A stretch of DNA of 11,194 nucleotides, taken from positions 1 to 11,194 of the forward strand of contig JAKSMA010000062.1 of assembly GCA_024400895.1 (NCBI GenBank). The letters are read 5' to 3'. The translations under genes were made by a program, and so were the position numbers. This document shows, in pieces, positions 2,407 through 9,814 of this stretch; position 1 is the stretch's first letter, and the number at the start of each line of letters is the position of its first letter. Source of the DNA: Muribaculaceae bacterium. Its GTDB lineage: Bacteria > Bacteroidota > Bacteroidia > Bacteroidales > Muribaculaceae. The notes beneath the pieces were generated by a model. It worked only from the letters and a program-made list of their open reading frames with translations, had not been told where the DNA came from and did not search any database.

Positions 2407-2442
2407 ATGGCTAAAGGGGACGGTTCTTTTTAGCCATTTTTT
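2407..2442 (-). repeat. REP-like hairpin repeat, copy 1 (overlaps transposase 3' end)
   Basis: Read on the minus strand this is A6, then arm ATGGCTAAA, loop AAGAACCGTCCCC and arm TTTAGCCAT. The arms are perfect 9-bp complements. Positions 2408-2442 are identical over 35 bases to copies 2 (3281-3315) and 3 (7122-7156). It is inverted relative to copy 2, and together they bracket the transposase. It overlaps the transposase gene, encoding its last eight residues and TAG stop. On the plus strand the hairpin is followed by T6, a terminator-like arrangement that points into the transposase gene. On the minus strand, the direction of the transposase mRNA, it is followed by a mixed A/T sequence and not a T run, so read-through is plausible. 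Confidence 0.92.
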
Positions 2443-3211
2443 GATGATAAGATATCGTTGAATACCCAATCCCCAAAAGTCTTGCAATTTGGTTCTTCTT
2501 CATCCCCATCGACAATGCCTCTAAAATCACCTTCTTGCGTTGATCTGTTGGAAGCGTATTGAAAGGTTCGTTTTCGCAAAGTTCATGCAGTGCAGCAAGG
2601 GCTTCTCTATCGGTCATGCTGTTTCTGTCAAGCGGAGTTTTTGAAATCCCTGGATGGCAATATTCTTGCACTAATTCACAAATCTCTTCCCAATTCAAGT
2701 CGCAGAAAGGCAATTCATGTGAGCAAATGCGCTCTGTTTTGTTGTTTTGTGTATATTCGCCCCAACTGCTCCATTGCCATTCGTCGAGCGATTGAGCAAT
2801 ATGTGCCTCGATGGGGTTGAAGTGAATGTAGCGGAGCAACTGAACAAAATATTTGGTGTTGCACACAGGCTCACTGCGGAAGCGGTCTTGGAACAGTGGT
2901 CCCATTCGTTCGTGTTGTTTGTTGAAATAGTTCACATAAGCAACCCCAATTCGCTTCATGACCGTCCCGATGTCATCGCTACCCTCCGAAATAAGGAGGT
3001 GTACATGGTTGTCCATCAGGCAATAAGCGTGGATGTGGCAATACGGAGGAAGGGGCTCTTCTTGCCCATTAGTTGGAGCAACAACAGAATTGAGGATTTT
3101 TAGGAACTTTCTCTTGTCGATGTCGCTGAGGAATATATCGTTGTGGTTGATGCCTCGAAGCATCACATGATAAACTCCAGTGGGGCTTTGTTGTCTACTT
3201 TTGCGTGGCAT
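2411..3211 (-). CDS. REP-associated tyrosine transposase (RAYT, Y1_Tnp/IS200-like) with C-terminal HTH
   Basis: The 266-aa product is a Y1-type HUH transposase of the RAYT (TnpA-REP) class, single-strand nucleases that cut at REP hairpins. Family signatures are the N-terminal GVYHVMLRG, the HUH metal-binding motif in MDNHVHLL (H69 and H71), FQDRFRSEP (107-115) and LLRYIHFNP (125-133). Y121 is the likeliest catalytic tyrosine, with Y128 as alternative. A C-terminal extension contains a helix-turn-helix-like segment (about 224-256, MKKNQIARLLGIGYSTIS). I chose the ATG at 3211; an in-frame TTG six bases upstream is possible but adds only two residues. A good -7 box (TATTTTTG) lies 28-35 bp upstream of the start. 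The gene is bracketed by two inverted copies of a 35-bp hairpin repeat, and the 3' copy encodes the last eight residues and stop. The frame is intact and the motifs complete, so it may be active. It sits between two paralogous nuclease genes. Confidence 0.92.
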   Translation of the reverse strand: MPRKSRQQSPTGVYHVMLRGINHNDIFLSDIDKRKFLKILNSVVAPTNGQEEPLPPYCHIHAYCLMDNHVHLLISEGSDDIGTVMKRIGVAYVNYFNKQHERMGPLFQDRFRSEPVCNTKYFVQLLRYIHFNPIEAHIAQSLDEWQWSSWGEYTQNNKTERICSHELPFCDLNWEEICELVQEYCHPGISKTPLDRNSMTDREALAALHELCENEPFNTLPTDQRKKVILEALSMGMKKNQIARLLGIGYSTISYHQKMAKKNRPL

Positions 3212-3238
3212 ATTCAAATAGTTTGGGCTTTTCTATCG

Positions 3239-3246
3239 CAAAAATA
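3239..3246 (-). promoter_or_regulatory. predicted -7 promoter box for the transposase gene
   Basis: The minus strand reads TATTTTTG, a full match to the Bacteroidota -7 consensus TAnnTTTG. It lies 28-35 bp upstream of the ATG at 3211, which would give a leader of about 20 nt. I see no convincing -33 element at ideal spacing. The box lies inside the two hairpin repeats, so it would travel with the transposase gene. Confidence 0.5.
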
Positions 3247-3280
3247 AGAACTTTTAGGGAGAAAACAAAGAAAATCCGCT

Positions 3281-3316
3281 AAAAAATGGCTAAAAAGAAC
3301 CGTCCCCTTTAGCCAA
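3281..3316 (+). repeat. REP-like hairpin repeat, copy 2 (upstream of transposase)
   Basis: Identical over 35 bases (3281-3315) to the other two copies and inverted relative to copy 1. The last base of the 9-bp arm differs (A at 3316 instead of T), leaving an 8-bp stem. It starts 69 bp upstream of the transposase ATG and lies 11 bp past the stop of the second nuclease gene. Read on the minus strand, the direction of that nuclease, the hairpin is followed by T6. It is therefore positioned to act as that gene's intrinsic terminator, keeping its transcription out of the transposase. A perfect 10-bp palindrome, CCAATATTGG (3313-3322), overlaps its outer edge. Confidence 0.92.
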
Positions 3317-3326
3317 TATTGGTTTT

Positions 3327-4175
3327 TTAGAAGTGGAACCAGGGGGCGGTGTTGGAGGTGGACTCGAGGCGGGATTGCTCGGCTTCGGGGAGGGTGTGGA
3401 AGAAGTCGATGCCGGTGAGGCGCTCTATTTCGTCGATGCTTACGGCATATTGGGCGTAGTGCTTGTCGGCGTTTTCGTTGGGCATTACGAAGGCGATGGC
3501 GCGCGATGGCTGGGCGTGGGGGGCGAACACTACTTTAAAGAAATGCTTCGGGACGGCTATCTTGTTGGCGTTGCCGATGGTGGACATCTGCTTGGTGAGC
3601 ACTGGGCCGGTAATCACCACGAGCATGCTGTCGCGCTGGCCCCATTCTCTCACTTTTTCCTCCAACTTGCGCCATGAGCCGGTGTTCAGTTGTCTGCGCT
3701 GTGGGCAGATGTTGAGCATGGCATACGACCCTTCCAGTGCCACGGCGTCCCATTTCATGTCGGCAGCGGGTGCCATGTGCCCGCGCTGGTAGCCGCTTTT
3801 GGCATACTCCAGTGGCATGGCGCATCCGTCCACCGATTCGTCGTTGTAGAAAGTGCCGTCGTATGTCGCCTTTCCTCCAATGTGGTCGCGTGTGAGGGTG
3901 TAGACCACATAGTTGGGCACATGGTGGGCACTGTTGAAATGCACTGTGAAACCGATGAAGTCCACTTCTTCGTCGGGGATTCCGGCGGGCAACTTCGGCG
4001 CGCATATCTCCTTCAGCAGACGCTCGTTGATGGCGATGCCTTCTTGCTTGAGGCAATGGCGCTTGACAATGACGGCAATGAGAAGTCCCACCACCAAACT
4101 GCCCCAAAAGCCTGAAAGTAGATGCAACTTCCAGTGCCGTGAGGCCCGTGTTTTACGTTTTTTACGAATTGCCAT
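3327..4175 (-). CDS. membrane-anchored DNA/RNA non-specific endonuclease (NUC1 family), copy 2
   Basis: The 282-aa paralogue of the nuclease at 1462-2382 has the same plan. A very basic N-terminus (RKKRKTR) and one hydrophobic segment (about 18-37) predict an N-in membrane anchor with the nuclease domain outside. The active-site motif is QRGHM (130-134): the usual Asp of DRGH is Gln, while R131 and the general base H133 are kept. N155, the Mg ligand N164 and E172 are conserved with Serratia-nuclease spacing, so activity is likely. I chose the ATG at 4175. An in-frame TTG at 4202 overlaps the predicted -7 box and would add nine residues before the basic region, so it is unlikely. The gene ends 11 bp before hairpin repeat copy 2, which can serve as its terminator. 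It is divergent from pepT. The substrate is unknown. Confidence 0.9.
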   Translation of the reverse strand: MAIRKKRKTRASRHWKLHLLSGFWGSLVVGLLIAVIVKRHCLKQEGIAINERLLKEICAPKLPAGIPDEEVDFIGFTVHFNSAHHVPNYVVYTLTRDHIGGKATYDGTFYNDESVDGCAMPLEYAKSGYQRGHMAPAADMKWDAVALEGSYAMLNICPQRRQLNTGSWRKLEEKVREWGQRDSMLVVITGPVLTKQMSTIGNANKIAVPKHFFKVVFAPHAQPSRAIAFVMPNENADKHYAQYAVSIDEIERLTGIDFFHTLPEAEQSRLESTSNTAPWFHF

Positions 4176-4199
4176 GTTACAAATGCCACCTTTTGACCA

Positions 4200-4207
4200 C
4201 AAAAATA
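4200..4207 (-). promoter_or_regulatory. predicted -7 promoter box for nuclease copy 2
   Basis: The minus strand reads TATTTTTG, matching TAnnTTTG, 25-32 bp upstream of the ATG at 4175. It argues for that start, since the alternative TTG codon at 4202 lies within the box. It is back-to-back with the pepT box, with 13 bp between them. Confidence 0.5.
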
Positions 4208-4220
4208 CAAAAATTATTAT

Positions 4221-4228
4221 TACCTTTG
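4221..4228 (+). promoter_or_regulatory. predicted -7 promoter box for pepT
   Basis: TACCTTTG is a full match to the Bacteroidota -7 consensus. It predicts a start near 4235 and a leader of about 70 nt before the pepT ATG at 4306. A TTTTG at 4191-4195 is 25 bp upstream, longer than ideal for a -33 element. The leader contains a weak CGCCA/TGGCG hairpin (4266-4281) with a 6-nt loop and no obvious function. Confidence 0.5.
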
Positions 4229-4305
4229 TTCACTAATAATACTTATAATAACAATAAACTGCCCACGCCACACCAATGGCGATGGCTTAAAAACATAATC
4301 ACAGC

Positions 4306-5526
4306 ATGAAATTAGTAGATAGATTTCTCCAGTATGTGAAGTACGACACTCAAAGTGACGAACTTACCAACCTTACCCCATCCACCCCAGGTCAGATGGT
4401 GTTTGCACAACAACTCAAAAAGGAACTCAAGGGCATGGGCTTGAGCGACATCTCGCTTGACGACAACGGTTATTTGATGGCAACTCTTCCTTCAAACACC
4501 GACAAGAAAGTGCCTACCATCGGTTTTATCGCTCACCTCGACACTGCTCCCGACATGAGCGGCCATGGCGTGAAACCACGCGTGGTGAAATATGAAGGTG
4601 GCAAGGTGGTGCTCAACGAAGAACAAGGCATCGTGCTCGATCCTGAACAATTCCCTGAAATGAACGATTTCGTGGGTCAAGACCTCGTGGTTACCGACGG
4701 TACAACCCTTCTTGGTGCCGACGACAAGGCTGGTATCGCCGAAATCATCAGCGCTATTGAATTCTTCCAGGCTCACCCTGAAATCAAGCACGGCGACATC
4801 CGCATCGCTTTCAACCCAGATGAAGAAATCGGTATGGGTGCTCATCACTTCGATGTTGAAAAATTCGGCGCCGACTGGGCTTACACAATGGACGGCGGCT
4901 ATCCTGGCGAACTTGAATACGAAAACTTCAACGCTGCATCAGCAAAAATCACTTTCACTGGTTTGAACGTGCACCCAGGTATGGCTAAGCACAAAATGCT
5001 CAGCTCTATCCGCGTGGCCAATCAGTTTGCAGTGATGATTCCTCGTTGGGAAACTCCTGAACACACCGAAGGCTATGAAGGTTTCTATCACCTCGTAGGT
5101 TTCGAGGGCTCTGTTGAAAAGACTGTGCTCACCTACATTGTTCGCGACCACGACCGTGCACGTTTCGAAAGCCGCAAGCGCGAACTCGAACACCTCTGCC
5201 GCAAGGTGAATAGCGAATTCCCTAACTGCGCTTCTTGCGAAATCAAGGACCAATACTACAACATGCGTGAAAAGATTGAGCCAGTGATGCACATCGTGGA
5301 AGTGGCTGAGAAGGCTATGAAGAATGCCGATGTGGCTCCTATCGTGCAACCAATCCGTGGCGGTACCGATGGCGCTCAACTCTCGTTCAAGGGTCTTCCT
5401 TGTCCTAACATCTTCGCTGGTGGCATGAACATGCACGGCCGCTACGAATATGTTTCGGTTCAAGCAATGGAAAAGGCTATGCAAACCATCGTTGAAATCT
5501 GCAAAATCGTTGAAGCAGAAGCATAA
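4306..5526 (+). CDS. pepT: peptidase T (tripeptide aminopeptidase, M20B)
   Basis: PepT is a cytoplasmic di-zinc aminopeptidase that removes the N-terminal residue of tripeptides during peptide utilisation. At 406 aa the protein is full length. Metal and catalytic residues fall at almost the canonical numbers: H77 and D79 (AHLDT), bridging D140 (GADDKAG), catalytic base E173 and ligand E174 (PDEEIG), D196 (MDGG) and H377 (MHGRYE). A lid/dimerisation domain sits between about 205 and 310 (HPGMAKHKM near its start). The ATG start is well supported, since [17 protein letters not shown] is the typical family N-terminus. The gene has its own predicted promoter and ends in a strong intrinsic terminator, so it is probably monocistronic. 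The next gene, pepD, is a second M20 peptidase, which suggests shared peptide-catabolic use rather than co-transcription. Confidence 0.97.
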
Positions 5527-5557
5527 GCGATAGCGAGGCATAATCCAGATAATACAA

Positions 5558-5605
5558 AAGCAAGGTGCGAATCACAGAAGATTTTGCGCCTTGCTTCTTT
5601 TTTTT
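5558..5605 (+). terminator. rho-independent terminator of pepT
   Basis: An 11-bp stem (AAGCAAGGTGC, 5558-5568, with GCGCCTTGCTT, 5586-5596; one G-U wobble) has a 17-nt loop. It is followed by C and eight T residues (5598-5605). It lies 32 bp after the pepT stop and upstream of the predicted pepD promoter, so it separates the two peptidase genes. Confidence 0.9.
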
Positions 5606-5652
5606 CGTGTATTCGTTTGCAAATTTCCGCAAGTTTTGAGAACTTTGTTAGG

Positions 5653-5660
5653 TAAATTTG
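5653..5660 (+). promoter_or_regulatory. predicted -7 promoter box for pepD
   Basis: TAAATTTG matches TAnnTTTG and lies 30-37 bp upstream of the ATG at 5690, giving a leader of about 20 nt. It falls inside the longer reading frame that starts at 5591, which supports the shorter pepD protein. Confidence 0.5.
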
Positions 5661-5689
5661 TATATCAACTAAATCTTTCAGATGAAACT

Positions 5690-7102
5690 ATGAACAGCGA
5701 TAAGGTTTTTGAAATTTTCAGCCAACTGAATAAGATTCCTCGTGCATCGCACCACGAGGAGAAAGTAGCCGACTTTTTGTGCCAGTTTGCCCAAAATTTG
5801 GGCCTTGAATATGAACGCGATGCAGAAAATTGCGTCGTGATTCGCAAACCCGCCACTCCCGGCCACGAAAACGCCGAGCCAGTGGTGTTGCTCAACCACA
5901 TGGATATGGTGGCAGTGGGCGATGGCTCTCGTCCGTTCAATCCGCTCACCGATGGCATAGAAGCCTATGTGGAAGACGGGTGGATGAAGGCTCGTGGCAC
6001 TTCGCTTGGCGCCGACAATGGCGTGGGGTTGAGTATGGCACTCGCTGTGCTTGCGTCAGATGATGTGGAGCATGGACCACTTGAAGTGCTCACCACCACC
6101 AACGAAGAAGACGGCATGAGTGGTGCATCGCAGCTCTCTACCGATTTTGTGCATGGGCGCAAGGTCATCAACCTTGATAGCGAGGATTACGACACCATCA
6201 CCGTGGGTGCTGCAGGCGCATATCTGCAGGTGGCTTCGTTCCCCGTGAATCATGTGGCAGCTCCCGAAGGCCATTCCTTCTATCGCGTGGAAATCGCAGG
6301 TGGATTGGGCGGTCATTCTGGCGTTGACATCAACAAAGGCCGTATCAATGCCAATCAGGAAATATGCAATGCGCTGTCGGCATTTGCCGATGTTGTGGTT
6401 GCCGAAATCAATGGCGGCGTGGCCAACGCTTCAATTCCTGGCCAGTGTGCTGCGGTAGTGGGCGTGAAGCAAGAAAACGCCGCTGAATTTGTGGCACATA
6501 TGGAAAATTGCTTGGCCCAACTGAAAGGCAAATATCCTGAAGAGCCACACATCACCACTTCGGTAACACCTGTTGAAACTCCTGCCACAGTGCTTGACGG
6601 CTGTGCAGCAATGGCTGTCGTTCCAGAATTGCCTTGCAATATGATTCGTATGCACGAGGTGCTGGAAGGTACAGTGATGACCAGCAACAATATCGGCATG
6701 ATTGTGACCACCGACAGTGCCGTTACGGTTTCATGCCACACGCGCAGTTTCAGCGACGAAGAAATGGTGCAGACAGCCGAAGGCATCACTGCCAAATTCG
6801 TGGCTGCAGGCGCGAAGGTGGAAGTGCTGATGAACACTCCGGGATGGCAAGAAAACCAAGACTCCGACTATATGCATCTTGTGGACAGCACCTTCGTGGA
6901 TGTGCTTGGATTCTCGCCCCGAAAAGTGGCCATGCACTTCGTGCTTGAAGCCGGTTATTATGTTCAGAAATATCCTGGCATTGAAATCGCTTGCATTGGT
7001 CCTCGCATTATAGAGCCACACTCCACCAAAGAGCGCATCGAGCTCTCCACTGTCGACGACATTTGGCGTGTGCTCATCGCCCTCCTTCATCGCATGGCAT
7101 AA
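5690..7102 (+). CDS. pepD: aminoacyl-histidine dipeptidase (PepD, M20C)
   Basis: PepD is a cytoplasmic zinc dipeptidase that cleaves Xaa-His and other dipeptides. The 470-aa protein has the M20C residues in order: H70 and D72 (NHMDMV), bridging D109 (SLGADNG), E139 and E140 (TTNEEDG), D163 (NLDSED) and H444 (IEPHSTKER). The GGHSGVDI motif (207-213 region, H209) marks the lid/dimer domain. I chose the ATG at 5690. The frame is open from 5591, but the extra 33 residues are encoded across the pepT terminator's right arm and the predicted promoter, and the family normally starts at about this Met. The gene is convergent with prsW, and hairpin repeat copy 3 sits 15 bp after its stop, where it could terminate transcription from both sides. 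Confidence 0.95.
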   Translation: MNSDKVFEIFSQLNKIPRASHHEEKVADFLCQFAQNLGLEYERDAENCVVIRKPATPGHENAEPVVLLNHMDMVAVGDGSRPFNPLTDGIEAYVEDGWMKARGTSLGADNGVGLSMALAVLASDDVEHGPLEVLTTTNEEDGMSGASQLSTDFVHGRKVINLDSEDYDTITVGAAGAYLQVASFPVNHVAAPEGHSFYRVEIAGGLGGHSGVDINKGRINANQEICNALSAFADVVVAEINGGVANASIPGQCAAVVGVKQENAAEFVAHMENCLAQLKGKYPEEPHITTSVTPVETPATVLDGCAAMAVVPELPCNMIRMHEVLEGTVMTSNNIGMIVTTDSAVTVSCHTRSFSDEEMVQTAEGITAKFVAAGAKVEVLMNTPGWQENQDSDYMHLVDSTFVDVLGFSPRKVAMHFVLEAGYYVQKYPGIEIACIGPRIIEPHSTKERIELSTVDDIWRVLIALLHRMA

Positions 7103-7117
7103 TTCCTTCATTCATAT

Positions 7118-7167
7118 AACAAAAAAATGGCTAAAAAGAACCGTCCCCTTTAGCCATTTTTTTTGTT
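7118..7167. repeat. REP-like hairpin repeat, copy 3 (solo), probable bidirectional terminator
   Basis: The core 7122-7156 is identical over 35 bases to the repeats that flank the transposase. Here the palindrome extends outward: AAC plus A7 on the left is matched by T8 plus GTT on the right around the ATGGCTAAA/TTTAGCCAT stem, giving a nearly perfect 18-bp inverted repeat around a 13-nt loop. It is located between the convergent ends of pepD (15 bp away) and prsW (19 bp away). The T runs on both strands after a hairpin are what a bidirectional intrinsic terminator needs. No transposase adjoins it. Its presence here implies mobilisation in trans or loss of a once-adjacent transposase. Confidence 0.88.
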
Positions 7168-9693: not shown

Positions 9694-9723
9694 CCCTCAG
9701 AGAGTTCATCGCCCTCCGAGAGT
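9694..9723 (+). repeat. short imperfect direct repeat before the heptamer array
   Basis: CCCTCAGAGAGT (9694-9705) and CCCTCCGAGAGT (9712-9723) differ at one position and start 18 bp apart. They directly precede the heptamer array and follow the FKBP stop codon by 3 bp. No function is evident. Confidence 0.7.
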
Positions 9724-9807
9724 CTAATTTCTAACATCTAACATCTAACATCTAACATCTAACATCTAACATCTAATCTCTAACATCTATCATCTAATTT
9801 CTAACAT
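9724..9807 (+). repeat. 7-bp tandem repeat array (consensus CTAACAT, 12 units)
   Basis: Twelve consecutive 7-bp units sit in perfect register. Units 2-7 (9731-9772) are six exact CTAACAT copies, units 9 and 12 are also exact, and units 1, 8, 10 and 11 are variants (CTAATTT, CTAATCT, CTATCAT, CTAATTT). The array fills most of the gap between the FKBP and ZIP genes and ends 7 bp before the ZIP start codon. It therefore occupies the region where translation-initiation signals would lie. No TAnnTTTG box is present in it. The unit length is not a multiple of three and the array is non-coding. Slipped-strand changes would alter the 5' region of the ZIP message, not a reading frame. Confidence 0.95.
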
Positions 9808-9814
9808 CTCTCCA

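Follow-up and report, generated by a model that had tools for sequence, protein, structure and literature searches.

A probable RAYT-like transposase of the TIRYT kind in a Muribaculaceae genome, with hairpin repeats that share a constant loop

The DNA analysed here (the window) is a stretch of 11,194 nt from a Muribaculaceae bacterium (assembly GCA_024400895.1, contig JAKSMA010000062.1), and it probably encodes a RAYT-like single-strand-DNA transposase of the TIRYT or RAYT group 1 kind together with its own hairpin repeats. Across the genus these repeats share a constant loop core, AGAACCGTCCC, while each transposase lineage has arms of its own. Copies with similar arms, facing outward, lie on both sides of the gene, and the other copies are mostly intergenic. 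The transposase would act on single-stranded DNA and recognise the core plus the hairpin, and through it short units bearing the core may have spread into intergenic DNA. Recognition at the level of the family would then rest on the core, as it does on GTAG in classical REPs, and paralogue specificity on the arms.

Three copies of a 35-nt repeat, identical over all 35 nt, lie in the window at the positions and on the strands given by a first-pass annotation of this DNA, and two of them bracket, as it had also said, the gene of an HUH/Y1 transposase (PF01797), whose coding sequence falls between the first two copies (Table 1). The 9-bp stem (ATGGCTAAA/TTTAGCCAT) is intact at two of the three; at the copy starting at 3281 the final 3′ base is A, so that the stem common to all three is 8 bp. 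The copy that overlaps the gene supplies the last transposase codons and the stop (MAKKNRPL*). All three are single copies, not doublets, and the canonical REP foot GT[AG]G is absent from them, with an A run standing 5′ of the stem instead.

The home assembly (G000; 2.18 Mb, 67% complete) contains the 34-mer at 11 places when up to 3 mismatches are allowed, five of them exact (reversed-pattern control 0), and the 13-nt loop at 32 places with up to 1 mismatch (control 4). The loop core is constant across at least four repeat families with different arms, namely A (TGGCTAAA/TTTAGCCA), B (TTTAGTAAAAA/TTTTTACTAAA), C (TTACATCAAA/TTTGATGTAA) and D (ACCATCA/TGATGGT). Among 35 distinct copies collected from G000, 26 are arm-matched (A 13, B 5, C 5, D 3); the other nine comprise one C/A hybrid, six in which an inserted element replaces the left arm, and two that are unassigned on one side. 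The relative G078, which is about 95% identical in aligned flanks, yielded 40 copies, 27 of them arm-matched (A 8, B 9, C 5, D 5), the remaining 13 being two hybrids (C/A and C/D), ten copies with an inserted element and one unassigned on one side. By a simple open reading frame (ORF) caller, 34/35 copies in G000 and 39/40 in G078 lie outside ORFs of at least 100 codons. The three transposases found in G000 carry three of the arm families: A at C221 (the window gene, at both ends), B at C236 (at one end only, the gene being truncated by the contig end) and D at C15 (at one end). The incomplete G000 assembly yielded no transposase with C arms; the C inner arm is present at loci of relatives. 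A longer repeat unit was rejected, as conservation in families A and B ends at the hairpin. Several family-C repeats are preceded by a loosely conserved leader, seen for example in the left flanks of L033, L159, L169 and L175.

The association between arms and transposase was followed through 39 loci of the genus with a relative of the transposase. The core, with one mismatch allowed, is present on at least one side at 36 of these (exceptions L048, L051 and L099), and inverted repeats flank the gene, as seen in the window copies at both ends and at 18 genus loci scored at both ends. Stem pairing was scored at 49 ends of 31 loci, five duplicate loci and the three exceptions having been left out. 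Outer arms pair with their own inner arms at a mean stem score of 7.27, compared with a mean of 3.52 (standard deviation 0.17, maximum 4.23) when outer arms were re-paired between loci in 2000 shuffles. A score of at least 6 was reached at 35 of the 49 ends vs 6.9% of 2316 cross-locus pairs; the score permits offsets of up to 4, so that L105 and L110 are under-scored. The inner arms of the 18 two-ended loci agree at a mean of 10.7/12 nt (only 3 at one locus), and between loci at 6.2. Arm similarity also tracks the identity of the transposase proteins (Mantel r 0.60 for 30 loci, with 0/5000 permutations as high). Outward core pairs 10-70 nt apart number 23 among the loci examined, and 17 of them, which lie at ten transposase loci in relatives, each form a single long hairpin (-40.6 to -67.4 kcal/mol when folded with RNA parameters); the remaining six do not fold in this way.

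Copy number was surveyed in 101 genomes of the genus, in which relatives were counted for the 11-nt core and the long repeat was counted in the home genome only. A transposase was detected in 35 genomes at E 1e-20 and in 36 by profile at 1e-10, the extra one being a 38-residue fragment in G040, which was scored as without. Together the genomes hold 1693 core copies vs 194 for the reversed control, with a median of 25 in the 35 genomes with a transposase and 3 in the 66 without. Ten or more copies are found in 28/35 genomes of the former group vs 12/66 of the latter (Fisher P 1.5e-9). The highest count in the sample, 165 exact cores, is that of G069, which has a single detected transposase. Three transposase-bearing genomes have fewer than 8 cores (G044, G010 and G011). 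In each of G044, G010 and G041 a transposase is flanked by a one-base loop variant, GAACCGACCC (L116, L118 and L109), and copies of the variant loop AGAACCGACCC number 30 in G041, 13 in G044, 6 in G001 and 4 in G010, with no more than 3 elsewhere; G001, in which the variant is enriched, is a genome without a detected transposase. The loop variant clearly follows its transposase in two of the three genomes. Because the loop is constant while the arms change, and because its variant follows the transposase in these two genomes, the best candidate for an element recognised across the family is the loop. The earlier suggestion of the loop as the natural candidate for the specificity determinant is to this extent supported, at the level of the family.

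The window protein is a Y1/HUH transposase, on the evidence of its PF01797 match (29.8 bits, cut-off 23, from a profile search on the ORF starting at 3217), its invariant residues (Table 1) and its fold. Y128 is presumed to be the catalytic tyrosine by comparison with published motifs. The AlphaFold2 model of the 266-aa protein (pLDDT 86.9, pTM 0.67) has as its top Foldseek match 4er8, a structure of the E. coli RAYT in complex with a REP hairpin (E 4.4e-7; TM 0.68 by target, 0.45 by query), and its fold also matches the IS608/ISDra2 transposases. By sequence, 4er8 is a weak match (E 0.005), and the score against the RAYT family NF047646 of NCBIfam is 58.7 bits, below the curated cut-off of 80, the five proteins tested scoring 51.5-60.5. 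The C-terminal region matches GerE at 20.3 bits, under the cut-off of 23.5, and a domain search of the window protein gave no match at 0.001 to HTH_23, HTH_28 or DnaA_C.

Wider relatives were recovered by tblastn, which returned 12 plasmid records at E 1e-8 with 27-35% identity. Nine of these were examined together with L048 and L051, the ends of some genes being estimates. Of the 11, seven have an inverted repeat with a related core on both sides, two have such a core only upstream, and two have neither. The core is GAACCGTCCC in Acetoanaerobium and of the CTGACCC type in Sporomusa, Rhodospirillum, Legionella, Iodobacter, Pseudoalteromonas and L048. In a phylum-level sample, 61/395 genomes match the transposase profile at E 1e-25. 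From 29 further loci, four with too short a flank were set aside and 25 were scored. At three of these, CTGACCCC repeats stand on both sides; ten carry repeats that end in ACGTCCC or ATGTCCC, another three have in common a repeat reaching to AACAACGT, and the other nine show no repeat of these kinds. A GTCCC/GACCC-type core thus extends more widely than the paired arms.

Comparison with G078 shows how the repeats behave at orthologous sites. All three window sites are occupied there, and at two of them the loop holds an inserted element. Fifteen sites could be aligned between the two genomes, and these are shared by construction because both sets were fetched by the core. A fairer test used the flanks of the 23 G000 sites without a counterpart among these 15. 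Eight of the 23 queries were alignable, with nine repeats that are occupied in G000 and G078 alike; at C71, C237 and C236 the orthologous flank adjoins a core in G078 (with a one-base mutation at C71), 12 of the 23 had no clear ortholog, and place C1/C36, with a rearranged left flank, was not scorable. At two sites, the solo window copy and the B copy of C19, stem and flank keep their orientation while the loop is inverted, and four loop bases are missing in G078 at two others (C41/C108 and C191/C75), C191 having a neighbouring B-type core with a base change. At the solo window site only the pepD side is visible, since the G078 contig stops inside the inserted element. At the pepD-prsW junction, where the first-pass annotation had proposed to map insertion ends, the G078 comparison accordingly covers the pepD side, on which the site is occupied with its loop in the opposite orientation.

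The element found in the loop is itself repeated and looks mobile, without a clear target duplication and with small hairpins at its ends (L042 1-219, L092 1-39, L152, L153, L031, L215 and others, in G000 and G078). It ends directly before the core in 17/17 distinct right-end contexts (the core being exact in 16 and changed by a base in one), and it stands directly after the left arm in 4/4 left-end contigs. Most of these contexts were fetched through the core, and the right ends in G000 are a fairer test; there, 6/6 run into the core. The sites that it occupies differ between G000 and G078. The element was sought in the loci examined, in G000 and in two exact-pattern scans of viral contigs; its body was not found, and the viral scans gave 0.

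Several observations weigh against a transposase that has spread its own hairpins. The first-pass annotation had held that wide occurrence of the repeat in genomes lacking a related transposase would tell against it, and this is seen in part: the 12 genus genomes with at least 10 cores and no detected transposase, with a maximum of 50 in G016, argue against a strict coupling of repeat and transposase, and could be explained by incomplete assemblies, gene loss or a more distant transposase. Conversely, 7/35 genomes with a transposase have fewer than 10 cores, and the 4 variant copies of G010, despite its variant-flanked transposase, are not above control, since reversed-pattern counts of 4 occur in several genomes. 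Ten of the 14 low-scoring ends in the stem test have in common the inner arm TTACATCAAA and have no outer complement there. Distant relatives mostly show a core within inverted repeats with no evident hairpin, and the loop of the window hairpin, folded as RNA on the minus strand, is mostly paired. Finally, no clean empty site or new insertion was seen in the G000 and G078 flank comparison; with all three window sites occupied in G078, the recent copying of the whole unit proposed by the first-pass annotation is not supported.

These points lend some weight to an unlikely alternative, in which replication slippage, template switching and recombination, all general processes, maintain and alter the repeats, with the transposase travelling along as a passenger that has the same ends or has ceased to mobilise them. 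Each of the 24 repeats compared between G000 and G078 is present in both (15 of them by construction), the 12 genomes with high core counts have no detected transposase, and the loop inversions at two sites preserve the stem. Very small inversions of hairpin loops occur in chloroplast DNA, and the inversions and deletions, few as these events are, may reflect template switching. Against general processes stand a copy number that goes with the transposase, arms that go with its lineage, and a loop variant that accompanies its enzyme in two genomes. It is also conceivable, although we consider it doubtful, that the transposase cuts inside the loop core, which would make the loop recognition element, guide and cleavage site in one. 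Hints in this direction are the two loop inversions, the two 4-nt loop deletions at orthologous sites and the hybrid hairpins joined at the core. If cutting and rejoining in the loop were true, loops would flip and half-sites would swap between repeat families; in classical REPs the cuts fall outside the hairpin.

That the repeats are intrinsic transcription terminators, possibly acting in both directions, is improbable. Family A does have an A run on one side of the stem and a T run on the other, and the nearest predicted gene end is a 3′ end for 27/34 copies in G000 and 26/38 in G078 (by simple ORF calling). Families B and C lack this arrangement of runs, on which ground terminators were rejected as a general account, and a constant loop with changing stems and outward-facing copies around a transposase would be left unexplained. 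That the loop-inserted element, and not the Y1 transposase, spread or maintains the repeats is very improbable. Its right end abuts the core in every context examined and in all six G000 matches, and its sites differ between the two genomes; sites without it have intact hairpins, however, so that it acts as an insertion into pre-existing hairpins.

The features of the window are collected in Table 1. Two genes of the PF01223 family (DNA/RNA non-specific endonuclease; 1462-2382 and 3327-4202) flank the transposase, one on each side and on the same strand. Elsewhere in the window, a 7-bp unit, TCTAACA, forms a tandem array at 9723-9810 between FKBP-like and ZIP-like genes (named by eye). A second dispersed motif, TTATCCCGAACTCGCGTTA, occurs at the ends or starts of several G000 contigs (L052 1-62, L053 1-61, L056, L060 35-57, L061 309-333).

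Table 1. Positions of the hairpin repeats, the transposase gene and its protein features in the window
Feature	Position	Strand	Remarks
Family-A hairpin repeat	2408..2442	-	Includes the transposase's eight final codons and stop
Family-A hairpin repeat	3281..3315	+	Upstream of the transposase, outward-facing; core end to start codon 85 nt
Family-A hairpin repeat, solo	7122..7156	+	Between pepD-like and prsW-like genes
Y1/HUH transposase gene	2411..3211	-	266 aa; coding 2414-3211, ATG start, stop codon 2411-2413
HUH motif, H69-V70-H71	2999..3007	-	H69 and H71 invariant in 32/32 aligned proteins
Y128, presumed catalytic tyrosine; Y---N motif with N132	2828..2830	-	Y128 and N132 invariant in 32/32
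C-terminal helical region, helix-turn-helix-like, residues 222-262	2426..2548	-	Three helices in the AlphaFold2 model

Judged by described features, the system comes closest to the published TIRYT kind (RAYT group 1, subclass 2.1). In the sections of the literature cited here, TIRYTs or TIRtrons are RAYT-like genes flanked by inverted repeats, many with GGGGWSAS and some self-complementary, and some of their repeats form dispersed families, dimers or clusters (Di Nocera 2013, PMC3733652). The window gene is likewise RAYT-like and flanked by inverted repeats. Its motif GGGGACGG misses GGGGWSAS, which is reported for many TIRYTs and not for every one, at one position, whereas CTGACCCC in several distant relatives fits this consensus. 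The constant loop and lineage-specific paired arms shown by the genus repeats are not stated in those sections of the TIRYT account. Subclass 2.1, which is probably the TIRYT group, is described as having a Y1 core, a long protein and a C-terminal region resembling a helix-turn-helix; it is the second largest subclass (14.9% of strains), and no REP-like sequences were found beside its genes (Quentin 2018, PMC6006769). The window protein agrees in having a Y1 core and considerable length, and the C-terminal helices of its model may form a region resembling a helix-turn-helix, but here hairpins adjoin the genes, and doublets do so in ten relatives.

Canonical REPs and REPINs (RAYT groups 2 and 3) carry a constant GTAG tag at the foot of the hairpin and are described as being cut 5′ and 3′ of it (PMC3116915, PMC8266576). 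The present system shares with them a Y1 transposase, hairpin repeats that are mostly intergenic, inverted doublets in relatives and a repeat type specific to the transposase; it differs in that it lacks a GTAG foot and keeps its constant part in the loop. The CGTC-tagged REPs are also short palindromic repeats, and the core here includes the letters CGTC. Identity with them was rejected, since CGTC in that description is an unpaired terminal tag and not a loop, the loops being of 4-5 nt and no transposase being associated (PMC3733652). Of the RAYT/REP system proposed by the first-pass annotation, what stands is a repeat family tied to a RAYT-like transposase; the canonical pairing does not, the gene resembling TIRYT or subclass 2.1. 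The layout is like that of REP/RAYT, but the system is best classed as a variant of the TIRYT kind and not as a canonical RAYT/REP member, because there is no GTAG foot and the constant element sits in the loop. The genus supplies REP-like partners for a subclass reported without them, together with many natural stem variants around one loop. With these stem variants, and with a loop variant that goes with its enzyme in two genomes, separate exchange of loop and stem can test what the transposase recognises.

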